Of a stretch of 39,368 nucleotides of DNA, positions 33,227-36,660 are shown one piece after another. Under the pieces are notes generated by a model, which was not told the origin of the DNA, ran no database searches, and was given only the letters and a program-made list of their open reading frames with translations. This DNA is from a virus, in IMG/VR virus record IMGVR_UViG_3300046542_000629, positions 1 through 39,368 of that record. One strand, written 5' to 3'. How positions within the stretch are numbered: the stretch's first letter is position 1; each line of letters starts with the position of its first letter. The translations under genes and the position numbers were made by a program.

Positions 33227-33371
33227 AGATTACGCCCGACAGATCATCGCAATACGCACTCGCGAGGAGCGCAATGGCGCGCTCCTCGAAGTGCCCGAGC
33301 ATCTGCGGGAATTGACTAAACGCCACTGTTTGAATGCCTGGAATCATCCAGCAAGGAAGAAAAACAAATGA
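33216..33371 (+). CDS. Small basic protein overlapping two neighbours
   Basis: 51 aa. MWPRDYARQIIAIRTREERNGALLEVPEHLRELTKRH is a pattern I have seen as a small conserved protein in Pseudomonas phages; basic and helical. It overlaps the KilAC-like gene by 11 bases and its stop overlaps the next start as ATGA, which supports it as a real coupled gene. An alternative ATG is 12 bases earlier. Function unknown. Confidence 0.6.
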   Translation: MWPRDYARQIIAIRTREERNGALLEVPEHLRELTKRHCLNAWNHPARKKNK

Positions 33372-33703
33372 ACAGCCAACTGGGCGAGATGCAGCCGCCA
33401 CTACGCCTCATGTCGCCACCGGATGCGGCCACTGTTGAGTTGCTTTACCGCATCTTTGGAGATGTCCTCATCCCACTGGAAAAGCTGCGCGCGCAGTACT
33501 TTCGCAACCTCAACGAGCGTTCATTCGTGGCTGAAATCGAGAGCGGGCGAATTGCGCTACCGGTGACCACCCTGGATACCAGCCGCAAAGCTCCCAAGTT
33601 CGCTCACATCCGCCACGTCGCGGCACTCATCGACATCCGCGCTTACAAGGCGGATGAGGACATGGCGAACACGCAAACCGACTCATCAGATCAACCGACT
33701 TAA
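33368..33703 (+). CDS. PrtN-family transcription activator (first copy)
   Basis: 111 aa. ELLYRIFGDVLIPLEKLRAQYFRNLNERSFVAEIESGRIALPVTTLDTSRKAPKFAHIRHVAALIDIRAYKAD fits the pyocin activator PrtN family: YxxxVIPLExxxxxYF, then basic-acidic strand and the final ALIDxxR helix. In P. aeruginosa PrtN switches on pyocin genes from P-box promoters and is itself repressed by PrtR. It likely activates a promoter of this phage. Start overlaps the previous stop as ATGA. Confidence 0.72.
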   Translation: MNSQLGEMQPPLRLMSPPDAATVELLYRIFGDVLIPLEKLRAQYFRNLNERSFVAEIESGRIALPVTTLDTSRKAPKFAHIRHVAALIDIRAYKADEDMANTQTDSSDQPT

Positions 33704-34161: not shown

Positions 34162-34239
34162 AGAGGCACCCACGGCACGCTAAGACATCCACAAATTCGT
34201 CTCTTCGCATTGCTCCTCCCTCATCAGGTTGGAGGGCTT

Positions 34240-35109
34240 GTGAATGAGCTGGCTCTTTTCGCAGGCGCTGGTGGCGGGATACTCGGCGGCCACTTGCTGG
34301 GTTGGCGCACCGTCTGCGCCGTTGAGCGTGATGCCTACGCAGCACAGGTTCTCGCGCAACGACAAAACGATGGTGCCCTCCCGCCTTTCCCAATTTGGTC
34401 TGACGTGCGCAGTTTTGACGGACGACCGTGGCGAGGGATTGTTGACCTGGTATCGGGCGGGTTTCCCTGTCAGGACATATCAGCTGCAGGCGGCGGCGCA
34501 GGTATCGACGGCAAGCGTTCGGGACTGTGGCGAGAGATGGTGCGAATCATCAGTGAAGTTCGATCCGCAAGCGTGCTGCTGGAAAACTCACCGCTGCTTG
34601 TGGGACGAGGTCTTGCCGTGGTCCTCGGTGACCTTGCCCGCCTGGGGTATGACGCTCGATGGTGTTGTATTTCAGCAGCCGACTGCGGCGCGCCCCATAA
34701 GCGCGACCGCATCTGGCTTGTGGCCAACGCCAACCGTGCATGGCAACCACAACCAACAGGGGAGCAGCAAGAACGCTGGATGGGGCCTGAGCAGCGCAGT
34801 CAAACAGTGGCCATCCCCGACCCGCAAATCAGCACGACATCCGGCCACTTCGGCGTGGCCGACCCCGGTCGCGAGCATGGCCAAAGGATCATCACCCAAA
34901 GCGCTCACCCGCAAATCTGGAGCAAGCCGCTCCCGGGATCGCTTGGACCACGCGGTCATGGCCTCCGACCATGGCCACCTGAACCCGACGTGGGTCGAGT
35001 GGTTGATGGGCTGGCCCATAGGCTGGACCGACTTAAAGCCCTTGGAAATGGCCAGGTTCCGCGAGTGGCAGCGACAGCATTCGATTTCTTGTACAACATC
35101 CAAAAGTAA
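34240..35109 (+). CDS. C5-cytosine DNA methyltransferase (Dcm-type)
   Basis: 289 aa. NELALFAGAGGGILGGHLLG (motif I, AdoMet site), VSGGFPCQDIS with catalytic Cys at about 77 (motif IV), VLLENSPLL (motif VI, ENS instead of ENV), RDRIWL (motif VIII) and a C-terminal LGNGQVPRVAATAF (motif X) give a complete catalytic set. It methylates cytosine, probably for protection against host restriction. Start at GTG 34240: GGAGGG lies four bases upstream. A second reading frame (34244-35122) is open across the whole gene. Confidence 0.85.
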   Translation: MNELALFAGAGGGILGGHLLGWRTVCAVERDAYAAQVLAQRQNDGALPPFPIWSDVRSFDGRPWRGIVDLVSGGFPCQDISAAGGGAGIDGKRSGLWREMVRIISEVRSASVLLENSPLLVGRGLAVVLGDLARLGYDARWCCISAADCGAPHKRDRIWLVANANRAWQPQPTGEQQERWMGPEQRSQTVAIPDPQISTTSGHFGVADPGREHGQRIITQSAHPQIWSKPLPGSLGPRGHGLRPWPPEPDVGRVVDGLAHRLDRLKALGNGQVPRVAATAFDFLYNIQK

Positions 35110-35122
35110 GAAGGCAGCATGA
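34244..35122 (+). CDS. Second overlapping frame of the methyltransferase gene, MTase-associated phage protein
   Basis: 292 aa, +1 relative to the methyltransferase and uninterrupted throughout. It contains TWYRAGFPVRTYQLQ, KTHRCLWDEVLPWSSVTLPAWGM and a C-terminal PTWVEWLMGWPIGWTDLKPLEM. I recall these segments in phage proteins annotated as methylase-related, a memory that a search should check. Its ATG at 34244 lies eight bases after GGAGGG (a better spacing than for the GTG of the other frame) and its TGA overlaps the next gene's ATG (ATGA at 35119), like most junctions in this operon. This suggests real translation. Function unknown. Confidence 0.5.
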   Translation: MSWLFSQALVAGYSAATCWVGAPSAPLSVMPTQHRFSRNDKTMVPSRLSQFGLTCAVLTDDRGEGLLTWYRAGFPVRTYQLQAAAQVSTASVRDCGERWCESSVKFDPQACCWKTHRCLWDEVLPWSSVTLPAWGMTLDGVVFQQPTAARPISATASGLWPTPTVHGNHNQQGSSKNAGWGLSSAVKQWPSPTRKSARHPATSAWPTPVASMAKGSSPKALTRKSGASRSRDRLDHAVMASDHGHLNPTWVEWLMGWPIGWTDLKPLEMARFREWQRQHSISCTTSKSKKAA

Positions 35123-35421
35123 TGGACAGACTCAAACAATTGGCCGAGCAAGCCAGCAACGTCACCTGCAGCGGACCAACCATCCACCCCGCCTGCCCTG
35201 CCCCGTATTGCCTGTTTATGGCAGCAGCGACACCAGCAGCGATTATCAATCTGTATGAGCGGCTTGAAGCATCGGAGCTACTGGCAGGGCAGGCGATGAT
35301 GGTTAAAAGCCTGGTGGATGGCCTTGCGCAAAGCGTTGAAGAGAAAGTGGGAGCCATCCAAAAATTCTCGGCAAACGCCGCCAACAGGCAGGATTTCCAG
35401 AACGACAAGGAGGCAAAATGA
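35119..35421 (+). CDS. Hypothetical phage early protein
   Basis: 100 aa. Mostly helical and soluble, with an Ala-rich centre (LFMAAATPAAIINLYERLEASELLAGQAM). No family identified. ATGA overlaps with the second methyltransferase-frame stop and, at its end, with the next gene. AAGG upstream of ATG. Confidence 0.6.
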   Translation: MMDRLKQLAEQASNVTCSGPTIHPACPAPYCLFMAAATPAAIINLYERLEASELLAGQAMMVKSLVDGLAQSVEEKVGAIQKFSANAANRQDFQNDKEAK

Positions 35422-35678
35422 ACACTCTATTTCTACTAATGGCCCAGTACGACGGCCAAGCCGTCATCCCCCTGGACCGCGTGTGCGCCGACTACATGAA
35501 CCTCTCGGTTGAGAAATTTAAGCGGAAGCGGCTGATGGGGGAGATTGATATCCCGGTAGTGAGGCTGGGAGCGGAAAGTCAGAAGGCAGGGTTGGGAATT
35601 CACTTGCGGGATTTGGCGGATTATATCGACAAGCAACGTGACAGAGCCATGAGAGAACAACAACAACTTACACGTTGA
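35418..35678 (+). CDS. PrtN-family transcription activator (second copy)
   Basis: 86 aa. NTLFLLMAQYDGQAVIPLDRVCADYMNLSVEKFKRKRLMGEIDIPVVRLGAESQKAGLGIHLRDLADYIDKQR is very close to the classic PrtN pattern (FLLMAQY, IPLxxVCADY, GEIDIPVVR, LRDLADYID). Probable positive regulator of phage or host SOS genes. It is more typical of the family than the copy at 33368. It is the last gene before the AT-rich cargo island. Confidence 0.85.
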   Translation: MNTLFLLMAQYDGQAVIPLDRVCADYMNLSVEKFKRKRLMGEIDIPVVRLGAESQKAGLGIHLRDLADYIDKQRDRAMREQQQLTR

Positions 35679-35781: not shown

Positions 35782-36660
35782 ATGCTTACACCATTACGCT
35801 ACCCTGGCGGCAAGGGCAAGCTCGGAGCCTGGCTCGCGCACTTACTGAGAAACAACAACATTCATAACGGTTCGTATATTGAAGCGTATGCTGGCGGAGC
35901 AGGCGCTGCTATATACTTACTCAGCAATAAGTACGTTAAAAACATATACATAAATGACATAGACGCAGCCATATATTCATTCTGGAACTCCGTTACCAAC
36001 GACAGTCGCAGCTTTATAAAACTACTTCTTGAAACCGAAGTAAGTATCGACGAAAGAGAGAGACAACGAGACATATACCTGAACCCGCTAAGACACACTG
36101 AGCTGGAACTTGGATTTGCGACTTTTTTTCTGAATAGAACAAATCGCTCCGGAATTATCAAAGGCGGTGTTATCGGCGGAAAAGATCAAAAAGGCACTTA
36201 CAAAATAGATGCTCGATACACAAAGGAAAACCTTGCGAAACGAGTATTAAATATAAGCGAGATGAAGTCCAACATATTCATCTCGTCCGATGATGCAATA
36301 AAATTCATGAAGACCGTTCCTCTAAGCGCCAACTCGCTAGTAAACCTTGACCCACCCTATTACAAAAAGGCTGAGCAACTATACTCTAGCTTCTACTCGC
36401 ACGACGATCACGTGCGTATCGCACAGCTGGTCCAATCAGTCGTGACACCAATAATTGTAACGTACGACAACTGCGAAGAAATACAAGAAATTTATGAAGA
36501 CCACAACTCCCTAACATTCAATATTATCTATTCCAGCCATCTAGATCGACCCGTTGCGAAAGAATTATTGATATACAAAAACATAAATATCGACCCCTTA
36601 CCGTTCACATCGAAGCAGATAAGACCAATTAAGGAGCCGAATCTACTCCCTATACCTTAG
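35782..36660 (+). CDS. D12-class DNA adenine methyltransferase in AT-rich island
   Basis: 292 aa. RYPGGKGKL (6-14) and YIEAYAGGAGAAIYLL (32-46) form the AdoMet site; NLDPPYYKK with DPPY at 190-193 is catalytic. It differs clearly from the late-operon methylase at 2889 and has lower GC. The 3' end overlaps the convergent ParB-like gene by 11 bases. Its own upstream inverted repeat hints at separate regulation. Next to a ParB/Srx protein, it may be the modification or sensor part of a defence-like pair (inference). Confidence 0.85.
   Translation: MLTPLRYPGGKGKLGAWLAHLLRNNNIHNGSYIEAYAGGAGAAIYLLSNKYVKNIYINDIDAAIYSFWNSVTNDSRSFIKLLLETEVSIDERERQRDIYLNPLRHTELELGFATFFLNRTNRSGIIKGGVIGGKDQKGTYKIDARYTKENLAKRVLNISEMKSNIFISSDDAIKFMKTVPLSANSLVNLDPPYYKKAEQLYSSFYSHDDHVRIAQLVQSVVTPIIVTYDNCEEIQEIYEDHNSLTFNIIYSSHLDRPVAKELLIYKNINIDPLPFTSKQIRPIKEPNLLPIP

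Follow-up and report, generated by a model that had tools for sequence, protein, structure and literature searches.

Two long reading frames lie on the same strand over almost the same bases of one phage gene, and the question this locus raises is whether they encode two unrelated proteins, one protein and a fortuitously open frame, or two parts of a single enzyme. In the window, the whole 39,368-nucleotide stretch of record IMGVR_UViG_3300046542_000629 that was analyzed, a frame starting with GTG and encoding 289 aa (alpha) is overlapped by a +1 frame starting with ATG and encoding 292 aa (O2), and both are open over exactly the intervals given in an initial annotation of this DNA (Table 1). 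Both frames are conserved among relatives, and the parts missing from one are found in the other. It is very probable, judging from sequence, that the locus specifies one C5-cytosine DNA methyltransferase made as two polypeptides, of the M.EcoHK31I kind, with the two genes overlapped almost from start to stop. We infer that both frames are translated, that their products bind each other, and that the complex methylates DNA.

Table 1. Positions of the parts of the overlapped methyltransferase locus in the window.
Feature	Positions	Strand	Evidence
Shared Shine-Dalgarno GGAGGG	34231..34236	+	Sequence; GGAGG core 4 nt from alpha GTG, 8 nt from O2 ATG
Alpha, C5-cytosine methyltransferase frame, motifs I-VIII and X	34240..35109	+	PF00145, phrog_363, HhaI profile, AF2/Foldseek
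O2/beta, +1 frame protein, 292 aa	34244..35122	+	Open in relatives, conserved ATG at +4, phrog_1008, synonymous constraint
Alpha motif IV Pro-Cys-Gln, catalytic Cys77	34465..34473	+	Invariant, 86 aligned sequences
O2 residues 159-245, WPTP-rich segment, putative target-recognition region	34718..34978	+	hhalign to VIII-IX segment of single-chain enzymes
O2 residues 246-262 LNPTWVEWLMGWPIGWT, putative motif IX equivalent	34979..35029	+	Invariant P248 E252 W253 M255 P258
Alpha residues 267-277 ALGNGQVPRVA, motif X	35038..35070	+	Invariant G269 N270 Q272
ATGA, O2 stop overlapping start of next ORF (35119-35421)	35119..35122	+	Sequence

Alpha carries the AdoMet-binding and catalytic motifs I-VIII, including the Pro-Cys, that define a C5-cytosine DNA methyltransferase. 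It matches PF00145 (5.8e-31) and phrog_363 (1.2e-61), and Foldseek searches with its AF2 model returned HaeIII and HhaI as the top matches (E about 1e-10). The initial annotation had credited this frame with all catalytic motifs, which holds for I-VIII and X but not for the target-recognition region (TRD) and motif IX. The PF00145 match in the alpha frame ends at residue 194 of 299, similarity to the HhaI profile is confined to motifs I-VIII, and neither TRD nor motif IX was recognizable in alpha, where matches to the HhaI and single-chain profiles go no further than VIII; alpha does not, then, unite TRD and motif IX with the catalytic motifs in one polypeptide. Motif X is present although the HhaI similarity ends earlier. 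The AF2 model is ordered at approximately residues 1-175 and again at 272-289 (the motif X helix), with most of 180-271 under pLDDT 50, including 185-234 and neighboring stretches, and this low-confidence region coincides with the DNA over which O2 carries its predicted TRD and motif IX.

The rest of the enzyme appears to lie in the +1 frame. In hhalign comparisons with single-chain actinophage C5 enzymes, alpha 5-166 aligned with the first half (E 5.7e-44) and O2 159-269 with the second, TRD-motif IX half (E 4.6e-11). The WPTP repeats and LNPTWVEWLMGWPIGWT of O2 sit over DNA where alpha is without recognizable TRD or IX, and the EWLMGWP block presumably occupies the motif IX position, by comparison with HhaI. 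A database search with the second protein, proposed in the initial annotation, was partly productive: it returned phrog_1008 (3e-19), a PHROG family labelled DNA methyltransferase, for which the library output makes no statement on overlap, and nothing in Pfam or PDB. The AF2 model of O2 is too poor to be of use (mean pLDDT 58.7) and a Foldseek search with it gave no PDB match, so the TRD/IX assignment in O2 depends on sequence profiles and frame accounting. In a pattern search across all loci, every motif IX that could be located either shared the frame of the catalytic half (0) or lay in +1 relative to it, and none lay in +2. In a sizeable minority of loci the pattern missed motif IX or even the catalytic half; in many of these, the O2 profile match spans the motif IX region.

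These comparisons bear on whether O2 is instead an unrelated protein with a function of its own, perhaps in anti-restriction, that was overprinted on the methyltransferase and resembles TRD/IX incidentally. Two sources describe viral overlapping genes as mostly encoding unrelated proteins (PMC8227390, PMC6195259), and such an origin would suit both the want of a Pfam or PDB match and an N-terminal half that resembles nothing known. It is nonetheless an unlikely explanation, given that O2 matches the TRD-IX part of single-chain enzymes, that exactly this part is absent from alpha, and that motif IX is confined to frames 0 and +1. The evidence supports reading the C-terminal half of O2 as the TRD-motif IX part that alpha lacks, both frames thus belonging to one enzyme. 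The initial annotation had pointed to overprinting because AGFPVRTYQLQ of O2 and GGFPCQDIS of alpha are the same DNA read with a shift of one base; the correspondence is exact, and overprinting in its usual sense fits the N-terminal half of O2 only.

The starts of the two frames are closely tied. Among unique IMG/VR loci collected by alpha and O2 searches, 116 of 120 place the O2 start exactly 4 nt past that of alpha, and the same offset was found in 86 of 89 additional loci, drawn from phages, one plasmid, and genomes of Pseudomonadota, Spirochaetota, Verrucomicrobiota, Acidobacteriota, Planctomycetota and others. The O2 start codon is ATG in 119 of the 120 loci; that of alpha is variable (ATG, GTG, TTG, and TTA in 13). 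Of the two starts, that of alpha is the less certain because up to 20 loci (e.g., L033, L043, L050, L169, L298) have TTA rather than NTG at this position, with the O2 ATG intact; a TTG three codons later is present in those TTA loci that were read and may serve as the alpha start. The single GGAGGG reported ahead of both starts is indeed there, and its spacing in the window agrees with the 8-9 nt from core to O2 ATG that is commonest among 79 representative loci. Ribosomes on this one site would start either at the GTG or ATG of alpha or at the ATG 4 nt downstream, producing beta, the O2 protein. The reported ATGA overlap of the O2 stop with the next start was likewise found, but since ATGA occurs about equally at the O2 stop (20/77 representative loci) and the alpha stop (19/77), coupling was dropped as evidence for O2.

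Two other routes to an O2 product were considered and rejected for want of signals. No internal Shine-Dalgarno sequence was found at O2 M136 in 72 loci, and slippery heptamers occur at the junction in only 9 of 114, which together favor two polypeptides over a frameshift fusion or initiation inside O2. Programmed ribosomal frameshifting, fusing the I-VIII part of alpha to the TRD-IX part of the +1 frame in one polypeptide, would account for the position of TRD-IX downstream of VIII in +1 and for the continuity of both frames. It is, however, very unlikely: almost every locus gives O2 a separate ATG at +4, motif X in frame 0 would demand a second shift, and O2 is free of stops upstream of the junction, which a shift does not need. 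Over the first 165 codons of 79 representatives, 235 stops were expected and 0 seen, a count biased by the choice of loci with both ORFs >200 codons and therefore given a supporting role only.

The fairest sample for conservation of the second frame is the set of relatives chosen by alpha alone, with duplicates removed. The initial annotation had named stop codons or random drift in this frame as what would speak against it; both were looked for, and the +1 frame was open across the aligned gene in 77 of 77 unique relatives (49-82% alpha identity) and constrained, most strongly at motif IX. When the alpha codons were redrawn synonymously according to their own usage, +1 stayed free of stops in 1% of redraws of the window and in a mean of 0.9% over 116 loci, which, with the 77 open relatives, ruled out a chance open frame. 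Single stops interrupt the O2 frame in one locus (L009) and the alpha frame in four (L026, L241, L291, L301). That +1 is open merely through codon usage and methyltransferase constraint, and is untranslated, is most improbable and already contradicted, for although +1 stops are few in G+C-rich members (about 1.2 expected in the first 165 alpha codons of the window), all 77 relatives are open, members with G+C down to 46% remain so, the O2 start codon is conserved, and fourfold sites are near-invariant over motif IX.

Synonymous constraint across relatives, which had been suggested as a check, was clearly present. At 50-60% alpha identity, 0.57 of alpha fourfold sites were identical, against a usage expectation of 0.295 and against controls at similar divergence of 0.42 (166 flanking-gene pairs) and 0.43 (single-chain relatives). 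These fourfold-site tests with flanking-gene controls were used in place of alternative-frame similarity z-scores, in which shared descent raised all frames, +1 most. Computed by region on pairs at 45-60% alpha identity, alpha wobble identity was 0.68 at codons 1-15, 0.47 at 16-45, 0.52 at 46-75, 0.37 at 76-110, 0.62 at 111-135, 0.49 at 136-165, 0.53-0.59 in the variable region, 0.98 at codons 249-266 (motif IX of O2), and 0.60 after. Over codons 249-266, alpha differed more often at first positions (34% of comparisons) than at third (12%), the opposite of what an ordinary gene shows, and O2 is therefore the selected frame there; alpha wobble was more variable over motif X than over motif IX. 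The second frame is thus conserved and constrained beyond the first, weakly so over alpha codons 76-110, where identity was no higher than in controls and O2 shows no constraint beyond staying open. The N-terminal half of O2 is only partly constrained. It is possible, if rather doubtful, that this half of beta, read across the alpha catalytic motifs, is a functional segment in its own right born by overprinting, for example one that couples subunit synthesis and assembly; if so, one enzyme would be built from two proteins with nearly every gene base in common.

In the two-polypeptide enzyme proposed here, motifs I-VIII of alpha would fold into the catalytic domain that binds AdoMet, with the motif X helix closing it, and beta would contribute the small domain, which holds motif IX and the target-recognition region. 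An active enzyme would require the two to associate. Going by the enzyme type, the complex would methylate phage DNA, most likely against host restriction.

Relatives of the locus show three arrangements: single-chain (motifs IX and X in frame 0), split (both in +1), and overlapped (IX in +1, X in 0), the last being that of the window's clade. Gordonia phage Derg and its relatives have single-chain enzymes in which the second half, with LPTP repeats, EWMMxxPxGW, and then GNGV..., follows in one frame. Split examples are Mycobacterium phage Cintron 79/78 (L168 2420-3515) and Gordonia phage Upyo 54/53 (L166 2284-3553), whose adjoining "DNA methylase" genes look like the halves of one split C5 enzyme. 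Derg gp4, Cintron gp79/gp78, and Upyo gp54/gp53 all resemble alpha/O2 in having a homologous catalytic half and a homologous LPTP/EWMMGWPxGW second half; they differ in that Derg gp4 has everything in one frame, while in Cintron and Upyo TRD, IX, and X stand together in +1 and the first frame ends soon after VIII. In a tree of the catalytic half (53 rows), all 34 overlapped forms fall on one side of a branch (100/100), and the three split forms require three separate changes among single-chain ones. In a Spirochaetia MAG (L297 3997-5167), alpha ends after VIII and O2, still starting at +4, carries IX and X, an apparent intermediate between overlapped and split forms. In another locus (L127 2007-2903), the motif IX sequence falls in the alpha frame and is lost from O2; either the frames were naturally swapped between TRD and motif IX or the sequence contains an error there.

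Enzymes of this type made from two polypeptides are already known. The small subunit of M.EcoHK31I is reportedly approximately 176 aa long and nested within the large-subunit gene in an alternative frame, whereas beta here is 292 aa and overlaps alpha almost from start to stop. The large subunit of M.EcoHK31I (YGGCCR) has motifs I-VIII and X and the small subunit motif IX, with the predicted TRD assigned to the large subunit (PMC3404938, citing Lee et al., 1995). Alpha/O2 would share the division of motifs, a likeness of motif content seen here at the level of sequence, and would differ in the TRD, the TRD-like segment lying in O2 rather than in the large subunit. Because O2 159-269 matches the TRD-IX segment, the claim is that the locus would work like M.EcoHK31I and not that it strictly belongs with it. 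M.AquI (CYCGRG) is a C5 enzyme naturally split between motifs VIII and IX (PMC3404938), and like alpha/O2 it comprises two polypeptides divided at this point; its small subunit, however, has both IX and X and its variable region is divided, whereas in alpha/O2 the large subunit keeps X and the coding regions overlap nearly completely.

PHROG 363 (alpha) and 1008 (O2) are both catalogued phage families, which here are two halves of one locus, and of nine public records containing both frames, six annotate only alpha and three only O2. The open-licence papers searched, a partial coverage of the literature, contained no description of a near start-to-stop overlap of this kind in a broad viral clade. 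A same-strand overlap of approximately 290 codons, conserved in viruses of several bacterial phyla, thus appears to have been missed by annotation. It is unusual in that the overlapping proteins would be complementary halves of one enzyme and not unrelated products, and the single-chain, split, and overlapped forms offer a series for following and testing the origin of an overlapping gene. The arrangement also suggests that, in this clade, a phage methyltransferase cloned as only the annotated alpha frame, whether recoded or taken out of its context, would need beta to be active.

The virus record also encodes terminase, portal, tape measure, tail fibre, primase-helicase, and repressor. The methyltransferase is flanked on both sides by ORFs (33368-33703 and 35418-35678) that match Pfam PyocinActivator (PrtN, 8e-29 and 2e-25) and that PHROGs labels excisionase (phrog_1300). 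Close downstream, ORF 35782-36660 encodes a second DNA methyltransferase, of the D12-class adenine type (PF02086, 3.8e-14).
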